From the NCBI GenBank assembly GCA_025929425.1, contig JAICME010000008.1, positions 1-40,029 of the forward strand: a DNA stretch of 40,029 nt, written 5' to 3'. The first letter of the stretch is position 1. The number at the start of each line of letters is the position of its first letter. Made by a program: the position numbers and the translations under genes. The notes below the pieces were generated by a model that worked only from the letters and a program-made list of their open reading frames with translations, was not told the DNA's origin and did no database searches. This DNA is from Thermoleophilia bacterium (GTDB taxonomy: Bacteria; Actinomycetota; Thermoleophilia; Gaiellales; Gaiellaceae). Shown in pieces: positions 1,398 to 33,396 of the stretch.

Positions 1398-3043
1398 CTC
1401 CGACGGCAGCGCGGGCGCTGACCCGCGAAGGCGGCGAGGAGGCTGCTCGCGTTCACGTCGAACGCGATCCGCACGGTCGCCGGTCGTCGCGTCCGCAGCT
1501 CGACCATCCCATCGCTGCTCGGCAGGAGGCAGCCAGTCGAGGCCTGCCAGTACGGCGACCAGCGCACGGCGAGGTCGTACGTTCCGCCGCGCGAGGCGCG
1601 AACGACGAGGCGCGACTCCTTGAACGCGAGCACGCTCGGTTCGCCGGGCCCACTCACGATCTGCCGTGGATGGGGGACGGCGTAGATCGAGACCTCCCGG
1701 GTCGAGAAGACGCGACGCAGATCGGTGCGCCCGCTGCGCACGAGCCGCTTTTCGGCGCGTGAGCTGTAATCCGGCGGCGAGCGCGTCAGTACGACGTAGG
1801 CGACGCCGAGCCGCCGCAGCCAGCCGAGGTACTGCGCCGGAGCGAGGGTTCGGTGCCGGTAGAGGATCGCGTCGAACGGGAAGTCGTCCTGGCGGAACCA
1901 GCCGCGCGCGAGCGGGATCTTGGCGGTGGCGAGGTAGTACGCGGGCCAGTGATCGGCCGTGTCGACCGCCTCGACGCGATACCCGGGACGAAGGTTCGCG
2001 CGGAGGTATGAGACCGGCGCCCGCCAGAGGGCGGCACGGTCGGTCACGTCCTGGTTCCCACGGGCCCAGCTGGCCGCGAGCGGAGTCACGTTCCACGAGA
2101 GCGCGAGCGCGAGAACGGCCACCGAGACCTTGACCGGACGCCAGCGGCGCAGCGCGAGCACGAGCAACGCCAACGGCACGGCAAAGAAGCGCAGGCGGGC
2201 GACGTTGTCTCCGAGCCCCGACGGCACGACGTAGACGAATACGACCGTGATCGCGTACGTCGCGAAGACGAAGCGAAGCAGGCGCGCCCGCTCGAGGCGC
2301 AGCGTGCAGGCGAATCCGATGGCGCAGAAGGCGAGCGCTCCCGCCATGGAGAGGGTCGGGAAGCTCTGCGCGCCGCCGAAGGGAAAGAGCCGCAGCACCA
2401 CGAGCTCCGTCCCGGCGGCCGCTGCGAGCGCGAGTGCCGGCACGACACGCCCGCGCAGCGGTGCGCGCCGCGCAACGGCGACCCCGACGAGGACGACGGC
2501 CAGCAGGACGAGGGCGACCGGGCTCGCCGCGAGCACGAGCAACGTCAGGCCGGCCCCGACCCAGCGACGCCCGGAGCGGAACGCGACCAGCGCGAGCAGG
2601 GCCAGGGTCACGCCGAGCGAGAAGGGGTACTCGGCCGTGATCACCACTCCCGACCACACGACGGCAAATGCCCGCACGGCCCAGTTCGCGGCAGGTCCCC
2701 ACTCGCGCTGGAGGAGCACGGCGAACGCACCGGCAGCGACCGCGGCCGCAAGCACGGCGAGCAGACGGATCCCGAGCAGCGCGGCGAGCGGGTAGTAGAG
2801 GACGCTGTAGCCGACGAACGCGTAGCGCCCGGCGTACCAGAAGTTGTCCCAGAGCGCGAAGCCGTGGCCGAGGAAGAGCGCGCGCTGGTACTCGTGAGCG
2901 GCGAGATCGCCGGCCGGCGGGGCGAGCCACACGAGCAGCGACGCGACGGCCGCCGCAAGGCCCGTGCAGAGCACGGCTTCGCGTGCGACCGGCGGCCGCC
3001 ACCTTGGCGTACGCCCGGGGTCGGCGTAGGGCACGGTGGCCAT
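1295..3043 (-). CDS. Polytopic membrane protein, glycosyltransferase-C-like architecture, function unknown
   Basis: Many hydrophobic segments followed by a soluble C-terminal domain; ATG at 3043 (MATVPYADPGRTPRW); 583 codons including stop. Confidence 0.75.
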   Translation of the reverse strand: MATVPYADPGRTPRWRPPVAREAVLCTGLAAAVASLLVWLAPPAGDLAAHEYQRALFLGHGFALWDNFWYAGRYAFVGYSVLYYPLAALLGIRLLAVLAAAVAAGAFAVLLQREWGPAANWAVRAFAVVWSGVVITAEYPFSLGVTLALLALVAFRSGRRWVGAGLTLLVLAASPVALVLLAVVLVGVAVARRAPLRGRVVPALALAAAAGTELVVLRLFPFGGAQSFPTLSMAGALAFCAIGFACTLRLERARLLRFVFATYAITVVFVYVVPSGLGDNVARLRFFAVPLALLVLALRRWRPVKVSVAVLALALSWNVTPLAASWARGNQDVTDRAALWRAPVSYLRANLRPGYRVEAVDTADHWPAYYLATAKIPLARGWFRQDDFPFDAILYRHRTLAPAQYLGWLRRLGVAYVVLTRSPPDYSSRAEKRLVRSGRTDLRRVFSTREVSIYAVPHPRQIVSGPGEPSVLAFKESRLVVRASRGGTYDLAVRWSPYWQASTGCLLPSSDGMVELRTRRPATVRIAFDVNASSLLAAFAGQRPRCRRSYDVSRTSSESGLRSARADHSSAVWLAGVRARAG

Positions 3044-3067
3044 TCGCCAAAGCGTACGCTCGCGGGC

Positions 3068-4447
3068 ATGAGAGGCGCGCTGGCAGCCGGCCATCCGCTC
3101 ACCGCGGAAGCCGGGGCGGACATCCTGCGCGCGGGCGGGAACGCCGTCGACGCGTGCATCGCCGCTGCCGCGGTCTCGTGGGTCTGCGAGAGCTCGCTCA
3201 CCGGTCCCGGTGGCGGAGGCTTCCTCCTCGTCCATCTGGCGGGTGAGGGGCGCACGCACCTGCTCGACTTCTTCGTCGACCTGCCGGAGCAGACGCCCGC
3301 CTCGCTCCAGCTCGTCGAGCTCGTCGTCGACTTCGGCGACTCGCAGCAGATCTTCTACACCGGCCCCGCGTCGGTCGCGGTCCCGGGAACCGTGGCCGGG
3401 CTCTGGGACGCGCATTCCCGCTGGGGATCGATGCCCTGGCCCGAGTTGCTCGCGCCGGCGGCGAGGCTCGCCCGCGACGGATTCGTCCTCGACGAGCCGC
3501 GCGCATACCTGCACGAGATCCTCGACCCGCTGCTCCGGCACGCGCCTGAGGGAGACGCGTTGTACGGGCCGGGACGGGCGCGGCACAAGGGGGAGCGCTT
3601 TGCGCTGCCGGAGCTCGGGGACACGCTCGAGCTGCTCGCGGCCGCGGGTGCCGACTGCTTCTACCGGGGCGAGCTGGCGCAGCGCATCGCCGCCCATGTG
3701 CCGATCACACGAGAAGACCTCGGCCGCTACGAGGTGATCGAGCGCGAGCCTCTCGCCGCCACGTTCCGCGACGGCGAGCTCCGGACGAATCCACCGCCGT
3801 CGAGCGGAGGCCGCCTGCTCGCGGTCGGGCTCGAAGAGCTCGGCCCTGCAGAGGCGACGCCGTCGGCGATTGCGCGGGCGATGGAGGCGCAGGAAGCCAT
3901 GCGGCGCGAAGAGGGCGTAGGCGGCACGACGCACATCAGCGTGGTCGACGGCGAGGGCGACGCGGCGTCGCTCTCGTGCTCGCTCGGCTCCGGCAGCGGC
4001 ATCGTCGTGCCGGGCACCGGCATCCACCTCAACAACATGCTCGGCGAGACTCACCTCGCGGGCGACGCGCAGCCCGGGGCGCGGCTGATGTCGCTGATGA
4101 CGCCCTCGATCTTCCTCGAGCAAGGCAGGCCGCGGCTCGTCCTCGGGTCGGCGGGCAGCTCCCGGCTGCACGGTGCGATCCTGCAGGTCGTGGCGAACGT
4201 CCTCGCACGCGGGCTCGGGGTGGAGGAGGCGGTGGACGCGCGGCGGATCCACGTCGAGAAGGGCGTAGCGCATTGCGAGGACCCGGCCGTGGCGGACGAG
4301 CTCGAGGCGGCCGGCTACGCGGTCGTCCGCTGGCGGGAGCGGAACCTCTTCTTCGGCGGTGTCTCGGCCGTCGAGATCCGGGAGGACGGCTCCCTCGCAG
4401 CCGCCGGCGACCCGCGTCGGGGCGGCGGCGGGGTGGTAGTCGCGTGA
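3068..4447 (+). CDS. ggt: Gamma-glutamyltranspeptidase family protein
   Basis: GHPLTAEAGADILRAGGNAVDACIAAAAV...GPGGGGFLL; catalytic-Thr region GGTTHISVVDGEGDAAS. Confidence 0.93.
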   Translation: MRGALAAGHPLTAEAGADILRAGGNAVDACIAAAAVSWVCESSLTGPGGGGFLLVHLAGEGRTHLLDFFVDLPEQTPASLQLVELVVDFGDSQQIFYTGPASVAVPGTVAGLWDAHSRWGSMPWPELLAPAARLARDGFVLDEPRAYLHEILDPLLRHAPEGDALYGPGRARHKGERFALPELGDTLELLAAAGADCFYRGELAQRIAAHVPITREDLGRYEVIEREPLAATFRDGELRTNPPPSSGGRLLAVGLEELGPAEATPSAIARAMEAQEAMRREEGVGGTTHISVVDGEGDAASLSCSLGSGSGIVVPGTGIHLNNMLGETHLAGDAQPGARLMSLMTPSIFLEQGRPRLVLGSAGSSRLHGAILQVVANVLARGLGVEEAVDARRIHVEKGVAHCEDPAVADELEAAGYAVVRWRERNLFFGGVSAVEIREDGSLAAAGDPRRGGGGVVVA

Positions 4448-18164: not shown

Positions 18165-18745
18165 TTCCCGCTGACCCGCTCGACCGGCTCGCGCGGACGC
18201 TCGAGGCGCTGCTGGTCGTTGCGTCGACGCCGCTCTCGCTCGAGGATCTCGCCGCCGCGGCGGACGATGATCCGGAGCGGGTGGAGGACGCGCTGCAGCT
18301 CGTCGCCGACCGGTTCGCGGAAGAGCGGAGCGGAATCGTGCTGGAGCAGGTCGCCGGCGGCTGGGCCTTCCGAGCAGCACGCGAGGAGGCGGCCGCCTGC
18401 GCGCGCCTGTTCGAGCGGCCGGCGCAGCGGAACCTCTCTCAGGCGGCGCTCGAGACGCTCGCGATCGTCGCGTACCTCGGCCCTTGCTCGCGCCCGGACA
18501 TCGCGCGGATCCGCGGTGTCGCCGCCGACTCCGCGGTCGCGAACCTCCTCGAGCGGGGCCTGATCGCCGAAGCGGGCCGCGACACGGCCGCGGGCGGAGC
18601 GATCCGCTACCGGACGACGCCGCTTTTCGAGCGCGTCTTCGGGCTCGAGAGCCTCTCGGAGCTGCCACGCCTGGACGACGTCGGAGCGGACGCGGCGGAG
18701 ATCCGAGACCGCCTCCACGCGGTCGCCGAACGGCGCAGCGCCTAG
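18143..18745 (+). CDS. scpB: Segregation and condensation protein B
   Basis: LARTLEALLVVASTPLSLEDLA; LSQAALETLAIVAYLGPCSRPDIARIRGVAADSAVANLLERGLIAEAGR; 22-bp overlap with scpA. Confidence 0.95.
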   Translation: MDSTLRLIPADPLDRLARTLEALLVVASTPLSLEDLAAAADDDPERVEDALQLVADRFAEERSGIVLEQVAGGWAFRAAREEAAACARLFERPAQRNLSQAALETLAIVAYLGPCSRPDIARIRGVAADSAVANLLERGLIAEAGRDTAAGGAIRYRTTPLFERVFGLESLSELPRLDDVGADAAEIRDRLHAVAERRSA

Positions 18746-18767
18746 GCCGTTCCAAACACGGCCTAGG
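18741..18767. terminator. Perfect palindrome between convergent scpB and GYD gene, candidate bidirectional terminator
   Basis: CCTAGGCCGT-TCCAAAC-ACGGCCTAGG; contains the scpB TAG. Confidence 0.6.
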
Positions 18768-30562: not shown

Positions 30563-31813
30563 ATGACCAGCCGCAGCTTCTCCTTCACCTCGGAGTCCGT
30601 CACCGAAGGCCATCCCGACAAGATCGCCGACCAGGTCTCCGACTCCGTGCTCGACGCGGTGCTCGCCGACGACCCGAACGGGCGCGTCGCCTGTGAGACC
30701 CTGATCACGACCGGGCTCGTCGTCGTGGCCGGCGAGATCACGACCAAGACCTACGTCGACATCCCGCGCCTCGTGCGCGAGCGGATCCGCGAGATCGGCT
30801 ACACGCGCGCGAAGTTCGGCTTCGACGCCGAGACGTGCGGCGTCGTCGTCGCCATCGACGAGCAGTCGCCCGACATCGCGCAGGGCGTCGATCACTCCTA
30901 CGAGAACCAGCACGGCGACAGCGATCCGATCGACGAGCTCGGCGCCGGCGACCAGGGGATGATGTTCGGCTACGCCTCGAACGAGACGGACGAGCTGATG
31001 CCGCTGCCGATCATGCTCGCGCACCGGCTGGCGAAGCGGCTCGCCGAGGTGCGGAAGGCGGACGTGCTCCCGTATCTGCGGCCCGACGGAAAGACGCAGG
31101 TCACGGTGCGCTACGAGCTCGACGAGCACGGGCGCCAGCGGCCGGTCGAGATCGAGCGCGTCCTCGTCTCGACGCAGCATCGCGACGGGCTCGACATCGA
31201 CACGCTGCTCAAGCCAGACCTGATCGAGCACGTGATCGAGCCGATCCTCCCGAAGGAGCTCTACGACCAGCGACGGCTCGACCACGACAAGGACTTCGTC
31301 TACTGCAACCCGACCGGCAAGTTCGTGATCGGCGGCCCGATGGGCGACTCCGGCCTCACGGGACGGAAGATCATCGTCGACACGTACGGCGGGGCCGCAC
31401 CGCACGGCGGCGGCGCGTTCTCCGGCAAGGACCCGACGAAGGTCGACCGTTCGGCGGCCTACGCGGCCCGCTGGGTGGCGAAGAACGTCGTCGCGGCAGG
31501 GCTTGCGGATCGCTGCCAGATCCAGGTCGCGTACGCCATCGGCGTCGCGCATCCGCTCTCGGTGCTGGTCGACACGTTCGGCACCGAGGCGATCCCGGTT
31601 CCGCGGATCGAGGAGCTCGTCCGCGAGCAGTTCGACCTGCGGCCGGCGGCCATCCTCCGCGACCTCGACCTGCGACGGCCGATCTACCGGAAGACGGCGG
31701 CGTACGGCCACTTCGGCCGCGACGACGGGGACTTCACGTGGGAGCGCACCGACAAAGCGGACGCGTTGCGCGAGGCCGCGGGACTCGGCGCCGCCGCGGC
31801 TACGCCGGCCTGA
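30563..31813 (+). CDS. metK: S-adenosylmethionine synthetase
   Basis: [64 protein letters not shown]. Confidence 0.98.
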
Positions 31814-32489
31814 CGAACAGCCCGGCGGCGGCCTTCTCCGAGATCGCCCGCTCGCCGACCTTCTCGATCGCGACCGTGAACTGATCCGCCGCCGGCTCGG
31901 CGGCGCGCACGAGGATGCCCGTCCCGGGCACGAGGCCCTGGTCGTAGAACCAGTGCAGGAGGTCCCCGTCGTGCTCCGCGAGCCGGACGATTGTCGCCCG
32001 CGTCCCGGCGGGCAGCGTCGCGAGCGGCGCGAGCTCGGCGTTCTCCGCCTGCTCCACCGCCGGATCCACCGGCCACCCGTGCGGGCAGCGCTGGGGATGG
32101 CCGAGCTTGTCGTCGATCCGCTCGATCATCTCGTCGGTGAAGGTGTCGCCCATCTCGTCGGCGCGTTCGTGCGACTCGTAGCCCGTGTAGCCCATGAAGT
32201 CGGTGAGGAGCCGCTCGATGATCCGGTGCTTGCGGACGACGCGCTCCGCCCGCTCGCGGCCCGCCTCGGTGAGGAGCGCCTCCTTCTTGGAGCCGCGCTC
32301 GATCAGGCCCTCTGACTCGAGCCGCTTCAACATCTCGCCGGCCGAGGCGCGCGAGACGTGGAGCATCTCGGCGACGCGCGAAGCGAGAGGAGGGGAACCG
32401 GCGCCGTGCGGGGTGTACTCGCCGATCGGAAACGCGAGGAAGTAGATCGTCTCGAGGTACTCGTCTACCGAGTGGCCGGCGGCTGGCAC
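31800..32489 (-). CDS. DtxR/MntR-family metal-dependent transcriptional regulator
   Basis: [11 protein letters not shown]...[55 protein letters not shown]. Confidence 0.94.
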
Positions 32490-32508
32490 GCCGCTATATT
32501 GCCCGCGA

Positions 32509-32542
32509 GCCTGCGTGTAAGGGAACCCTTACACGGGCAGGC
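32509..32542. promoter_or_regulatory. Candidate DtxR-type operator between the regulator and ZIP gene
   Basis: GCCTGC-GTGTAAGGG-AA-CCCTTACAC-GG-GCAGGC dyad; TATATT at 32495-32500 just upstream. Confidence 0.7.
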
Positions 32543-32553
32543 GCTCAATCACC

Positions 32554-33396
32554 ATGTCGACCGGGCACATCCTCCTGCTGGGCGCGATCGCGGGCGCGAC
32601 GATCTTCCTCGGCCTGCCCGTCGGCCGCGTGAACACCTTTGGGCCGATCGTGCGCGCGTGTCTCTCGGCACTGGCGACCGGGATCCTGCTCTTCCTCTTC
32701 TGGGACGTCCTCACGGGCGCCGTCGACCCGATCGACTCGGCGCTGCAGGCGCGGCACTGGGGAAGGTTCGCGTGGCTCTCGGCGCTCGGTGCCGCGGGCT
32801 TCGCGCTCGGCCTGATGGGGCTCGTCCACTACGCGGTCTGGATGCGGCGACGTGCAAGCCGGCGCGTGACGACGATGGTCGGCCCGGGAGCGGCGGCCGT
32901 CGACGAGTTCACGCATCGCCGCTGGATCGACGAGCTCACGCCGGGCAAGCAGCTCGCACTGTTGATCGCGGTCGGGATCGGCGTTCACAACTTCGGCGAG
33001 GGGCTCGCGATCGGCCAGGCGGCCGCCGCCGGCTCGATCAGCCTCGCCGTGACGCTGATCGTCGGCTTCGGTTTGCACAACGCGACCGAGGGCTTCGGCA
33101 TCTGCGGGCCGTTGGCGGGGGAAGGCACGAAGCCGACCTGGGGGTTCCTCGGCCTGATGGGCGTGATCGGAGGCGCCCCGACGTTCCTCGGCACCGTGCT
33201 CGGGCAGGCGTGGTCGAGCGAGGCGATGTCGGTCGTCTTCTTCGCCGTCGCCGCCGGCTCGATCCTCTACGTGGTGCAGGAGCTGATGGCGGTCAACCGC
33301 AGCTACGGCCGCACGGCACTCGTCACGTGGCTCGTCCTCGCGGGGCTCCTGCTCGGCTTTGCGACGGACTTCGTCGTCAGCGCCGCAGGCGTCTGA
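32554..33396 (+). CDS. ZIP-family metal transporter
   Basis: GIGVHNFGEGLAIGQAAAAG and GFGLHNATEGFGICGPL are ZIP TM4/TM5 signatures. Confidence 0.93.
   Translation: MSTGHILLLGAIAGATIFLGLPVGRVNTFGPIVRACLSALATGILLFLFWDVLTGAVDPIDSALQARHWGRFAWLSALGAAGFALGLMGLVHYAVWMRRRASRRVTTMVGPGAAAVDEFTHRRWIDELTPGKQLALLIAVGIGVHNFGEGLAIGQAAAAGSISLAVTLIVGFGLHNATEGFGICGPLAGEGTKPTWGFLGLMGVIGGAPTFLGTVLGQAWSSEAMSVVFFAVAAGSILYVVQELMAVNRSYGRTALVTWLVLAGLLLGFATDFVVSAAGV

Follow-up and report, generated by a model that had tools for sequence, protein, structure and literature searches.

The analyzed stretch, referred to here as the window, comprises 40,029 nt of a Gaiellaceae genome and harbors, side by side, a minus-strand gene for a DtxR-superfamily regulator of 229 aa (31800-32489, with its GTG start at 32489) and a plus-strand gene for a ZIP-family metal transporter of 280 aa (32554-33396, with its ATG at 32554; PF02535 51 bits, cut-off 35.1). 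Between both genes lies the dyad GTGTAAGGG-AA-CCCTTACAC, which the initial annotation had described as resembling a DtxR-family operator; its position at 32515-32534 is as claimed, and so are those of TATATT (32495-32500, plus strand) and of the regulator GTG. The dyad is real and perfect over its full length, but its outermost G/C and innermost G/C pairs are not conserved, and the element that relatives share is the shorter, 18-bp TGTAAGG-N4-CCTTACA, represented in the window by the operator core TGTAAGGGAACCCTTACA (32516-32533) and kept family-wide.

As a bare inverted repeat the dyad is unremarkable. In this window of 70% GC, 9 inverted repeats with 9-bp arms were found as compared with ca. 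11 in Markov shuffles, which is not above chance, hence the reality of the site rests on the comparison with relatives. Another perfect inverted repeat, CCTAGGCCG-N9-CGGCCTAGG, is present at 18741-18767. The exact dyad pattern occurs a single time in the window, and the 2.7-Mb genome likewise contains it once when as many as 3 mismatches are allowed. The search for more sites in the window's own genome yielded no second good one, the others all having 3 mismatches and being fewer (7) than those of the reversed control (23).

The conserved core was defined by scanning the genomes of relatives, with the reversed pattern as control. At no more than 1 mismatch, TGTAAGG-N4-CCTTACA is present in 86 of 103 Gaiellaceae genomes, as compared with 4 of 103 when the pattern is reversed. 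In its exact form the core is found in 82 of 103, versus 3 of 296 genomes from other Thermoleophilia, with no match for the control. A sample of the phylum contained the exact core in 5 of 397 genomes, 4 of the 5 being Gaiellaceae; one exact copy lies in a distant genome within the same phylum (L217, G658:C1:2001261-2001278). The dyad core is a real element, and it is this conservation that is decisive. A chance inverted repeat, also considered, is ruled out by conservation across relatives. Our literature search on the motif TGTAAGG-N4-CCTTACA or on a Gaiella regulon retrieved nothing relevant.

Conservation at orthologous gene pairs, proposed initially as a check, was also found: the site is kept next to the orthologous DtxR-family regulator, and in about 40 distinct loci it lies directly between regulator and ZIP. 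Among 61 relatives, 27 have both regulator orthologue and site, 5 the regulator only, 5 the site only and 24 neither (Fisher 1e-7), in a test that ignores kinship, is confounded by shared ancestry and relies on incomplete metagenome-assembled genomes (MAGs); the corresponding numbers within the family are 26/1/4/6 (p 6e-4). Of the 5 relatives with a site and no detected regulator, several are represented by short contigs or by contigs that break off ahead of the place where the regulator gene would be expected, and about 20 regulator loci show no adjacent site. In outgroup loci, whose regulators are 60–63% identical, no clear equivalent of the motif was found: in the outgroup Thermoleophilia loci L189, L192, L193 and L195 the regulator lies upstream of fbpC-fbpA without it, with one near-match before fbpA in L193. 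Since the gene arrangement persists without the motif, the operator has probably changed while the regulator-fbp pair was kept.

Concerning the regulator itself, the N-terminal winged HTH of Fe_dep_repress type (PF01325, 35.6 bits, cut-off 26), the metal-binding and dimerisation domain (PF02742, 80.5 bits, cut-off 27) and the C-terminal FeoA/SH3-like domain (PF04023, 40 bits) are all present, and the structure model (pLDDT 84.7) has IdeR as its closest fold, with TM scores of 0.81–0.82 to 7b1v and 7b20. By domains and fold, the protein belongs to the DtxR superfamily. The metal site departs from that of the canonical DtxR/IdeR and MntR proteins. The ancillary-type residues H88, E92 and H107, equivalent to H79, E83 and H98, and E172 of the SH3 domain are kept in 88 of 88 orthologues, in which C135, H137, H173 and D174 are also invariant, whereas the primary-site pair E105-H106 is missing in all 88, being replaced by G114 in 82 and D115 in 72 of them. 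In the same 88 sequences M10 is replaced by E/D10 and C102 by D/E111, so that the IdeR/DtxR primary ligand set is lacking; the MntR primary site (D8, E99, E102, H103) is lacking as well, as the E-H pair is absent. Either E/D10, D111 and D115 would form a different metal site or sensing would have shifted to the ancillary region, and given the loss of the E105/H106 equivalents the sensed metal is not readable from the residues. In IdeR the primary metal site matters more than the ancillary one, and full activity requires both (PMC10317159). The recognition helix is also distinct, with an SRASAGEM stretch nearly invariant in the 88 orthologues where IdeR has SGPTVSQT, a change that may cause altered DNA specificity. 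A third DtxR-like type (L200 2167-2841 and L105 2553-3248), 42–45% identical to the regulator, has a Tyr in place of the ancillary H107 and a further altered primary site, and in L105 is preceded by a TGTAAGG site.

According to the initial annotation the dyad differs from the IdeR box and might define a distinct specificity. The sequence does differ, but the departure is smaller than this suggests. The target of a single IdeR dimer in S. erythraea has been redefined as the 14-bp TTAGG-N4-CCTAA, with specific contacts only to C1, C2 and T3 of CCTAA (PMC8464063). The Gaiellaceae site, TAAGG-N4-CCTTA at its center, keeps CCT at these direct-contact positions as well as the N4 spacing, carries a T at position 4 and adds CA on the outside. 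Both systems share the AGG-N4-CCT core, the spacing, a palindrome of one-dimer size, the DtxR fold and iron-uptake targets; they are unlike in TAAGG/CCTTA versus TTAGG/CCTAA, in the outer TG/CA and in that the one-dimer site serves in Gaiellaceae as the main operator and not as an exception. The 19-bp two-dimer iron box TTAGGTTAGSCTAACCTAA was found in 0 of 61 relatives' genomes at up to 3 mismatches. Because core and spacing match those of the one-dimer IdeR site, the Gaiellaceae operator is, by sequence, a modified version of a known operator type, not an unrelated one.

The position of the operator with respect to the promoters differs on its two sides. A TANNNT box lies 4–10 nt before the regulator start in 67 of 86 orthologues (the background is 0.35% for a 4–9 nt test), hence the regulator mRNA is probably leaderless. 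In the window the probable -10 is CAATAT (32497-32502, minus strand), 6–7 nt before the GTG, and the operator then occupies about -27 to -44 upstream of the leaderless start, that is, the -35 region. On the transporter side, the ATG of fbpC usually takes its A from the final A of the site. Many ZIP genes have a start codon that either shares one base with the site or begins 0–3 nt after it. The first spacer base, N1, is a T in 22 of 22 fbpC sites and in 30 of 35 ZIP sites with a start no more than 8 nt away. This T breaks the dyad symmetry and turns TAAGGT into a TANNNT-type -10; as symmetry does not require it, TAAGGT is a plausible -10 within the operator, and the fbpC operators and most near-start ZIP operators probably contain it.

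In the genus of the window the T at N1 is often lost and TATATT is present upstream. The operator in the window has no TAAGGT, TATATT is found in those relatives whose operator also lacks it, and in the closest relatives the ZIP start lies 16–21 nt from the operator. A ZIP-specific role of TATATT, as initially proposed, was rejected, because orthologues in general, even at loci that have no ZIP gene, carry a TANNNT at this distance from the regulator start. The hexamer may act as a shared element, possibly only in this genus, but in the first place it is the opposite strand of the regulator's -10 box, which it overlaps. That a shared two-way TATA element serves ZIP in the window is our best guess, held with low confidence.

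The metal signal is suggested by the genes that the site precedes. The expectation that it would recur near metal genes was borne out in relatives, where sites lie before fbpC, fbpA and EfeU/FTR1. In other genera the regulator is located downstream of an fbpC-fbpA-fbpB operon in which fbpC and fbpA are each preceded by a site, and one FbpA from this set has structurally characterised ferric-ion-binding proteins as its matches (best E 6.6e-67). Sites also precede EfeU/FTR1 iron permeases, two of them above the curated EfeU cut-off, one such site belonging to the window's own genus (L115). At L101 (1120-1162 and 2186-2310), L208 and L209 the operator stands in tandem before fbpC/fbpA, with spacings of 24–25 or 37–39 bp. 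Sites are also found before genes for sucrase/ferredoxin-like proteins (Suc_Fer-like, PF06999; L010, L008, L213 and L111), which recur as predicted members of the iron regulon. With FbpABC and EfeU/FTR1 among the targets in relatives, the signal is most likely iron, and the ZIP protein of the window probably imports it. This iron role of ZIP rests on the relatives, since the window's genome (an 86% complete MAG) has one site and no FTR1 was found in it, and no clear FbpA was found in the genus; ZIP is the sole importer of the regulon visible in this genome.

A second DtxR protein is encoded in the same genome. It has the canonical MntR-type ligands (E-x2-E-H), and its gene lies immediately upstream of an Nramp gene, which it overlaps (L197, G000:C9, genes at 1751-3723). 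The promoter of this paralogue carries the palindrome CCTAATCTAGAATTTAGG at about 1732-1749, kept as CCTAATCTAAGATTTAGG in another member of the genus. Within the palindrome lies TAGAAT, a hexamer resembling a -10, and 1 nt separates its end from the ATG, which is the same embedded-promoter layout with a different box. This MntR-MntH unit resembles the system described here in pairing a DtxR-family gene with an operator close to a probably leaderless start, and is unlike it in its canonical E-x2-E-H site, its Nramp transporter and its CCTAA-N8-TTAGG box. Manganese is likely handled by the MntR-type/Nramp unit, and with a separate MntR-like paralogue that has Nramp and a box of its own the two DtxR systems can be told apart.

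From these comparisons, we consider it likely that the adjacent DtxR-superfamily iron regulator uses the dyad, with the conserved form TGTAAGG-N4-CCTTACA, as its operator, as the conservation of the site and its co-occurrence with the regulator orthologue suggest. With ample iron, the regulator would very probably repress iron-uptake genes, in the window those for ZIP and for itself. The site with its conservation, position and target genes, the domains of the protein and the altered residues of its primary metal site are what we observed; binding, metal, repression, stoichiometry and promoter use are what we infer for the following scheme. At high cellular ferrous iron the metal-loaded dimer would bind the operator, one dimer per site to judge from size and spacing. 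On the regulator side it would lie over the -35 region and cause autorepression; on the transporter side it would obstruct the promoter or an early stage of transcription. For the majority of relatives this would take place at a -10, TAAGGT, within the operator, the start codon overlapping or abutting the operator end, while in the window TATATT (32495-32500) would probably serve as the ZIP promoter and the operator would lie a short way downstream of the start site. As iron falls, the repressor would leave, allowing production of the ZIP importer or, at other loci, of FbpABC or EfeU.

The same operator and regulator could also respond to manganese or zinc, with ZIP importing that metal. This reading, which we hold to be unlikely, would fit the versatility of ZIP proteins, which carry several metals, the best sequence matches of the regulator in the PDB, all of them Mn regulators (DR2539, ScaR, SloR and MtsR), and the CPHG motif that it has in common with ScaR; however, the other conserved targets are the ferric FbpABC and EfeU/FTR1, the predicted structure is closest to IdeR, and the genome has the canonical MntR-type paralogue adjoining Nramp with its own box. 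It is very improbable that some other regulator, be it the paralogous DtxR protein or a factor of a different kind, binds the dyad and that the adjacency to the present regulator merely reflects chance gene order. The paralogue is also a DtxR protein and the orthologue was not detected in some genomes with sites, but site and orthologue co-occur, the site tracks the regulator gene across differing neighbours (ZIP, FbpABC, EfeU), genomes that have only the paralogue (most of family f3) contain no sites, and the box of the paralogue, CCTAATCTAGAATTTAGG, is a different one.

Least probable is a function mainly at the RNA level, in which the element would form a hairpin in the leader of ZIP and act by attenuation or translational control; such a hairpin had been put forward initially as a possible second control layer. 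The dyad as RNA has a strong predicted fold (-23.5 kcal/mol), and in three long-leader loci the stem extends beyond that obtained with shuffled flanks (L016 0.004, L190 0.014, L020 0.033). The window's own flanks are no better than shuffles (fraction 0.22), no U-run follows the dyad, and there are also sites upstream of the regulator, where its leaderless transcript does not include them. In most orthologues the dyad reaches up to or into the ZIP start codon, so that their transcripts would lack the hairpin; hence, the dyad is regarded as a DNA site and not an RNA element. The outer arms noted at first (32509-32542) are indeed present, as GCCTGC at 32509-32514 and GCAGGC at 32537-32542, but the right arm is offset by two extra bases and neither is conserved beyond the closest relatives. 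An extended dyad that includes these arms was therefore discarded, its flanks being at shuffled level and unconserved.

With the adjacent iron regulator as the preferred reading, Gaiellaceae, actinobacteria known here mostly from metagenome-assembled genomes, gain a predicted iron regulon whose operator can be read. A broader proposal, which we put forward only tentatively, is that of a lineage-wide iron regulon in which a DtxR homologue dispenses with the canonical primary site, senses metal through the ancillary-type residues H88, E92, H107 and E172 and the invariant Cys and His of CPHG, and acts on single-dimer, -10-containing operators that touch the start codon; if true, one protein would be switching near-leaderless transcripts. 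That all orthologues lack two of the primary-site ligands speaks against the view of this site as essential for activation and constitutes a natural experiment. The role of IdeR at one-dimer sites was listed as open in a 2023 review (PMC10317159); in Gaiellaceae they appear to serve as the standard operator throughout the family, which makes this question testable.
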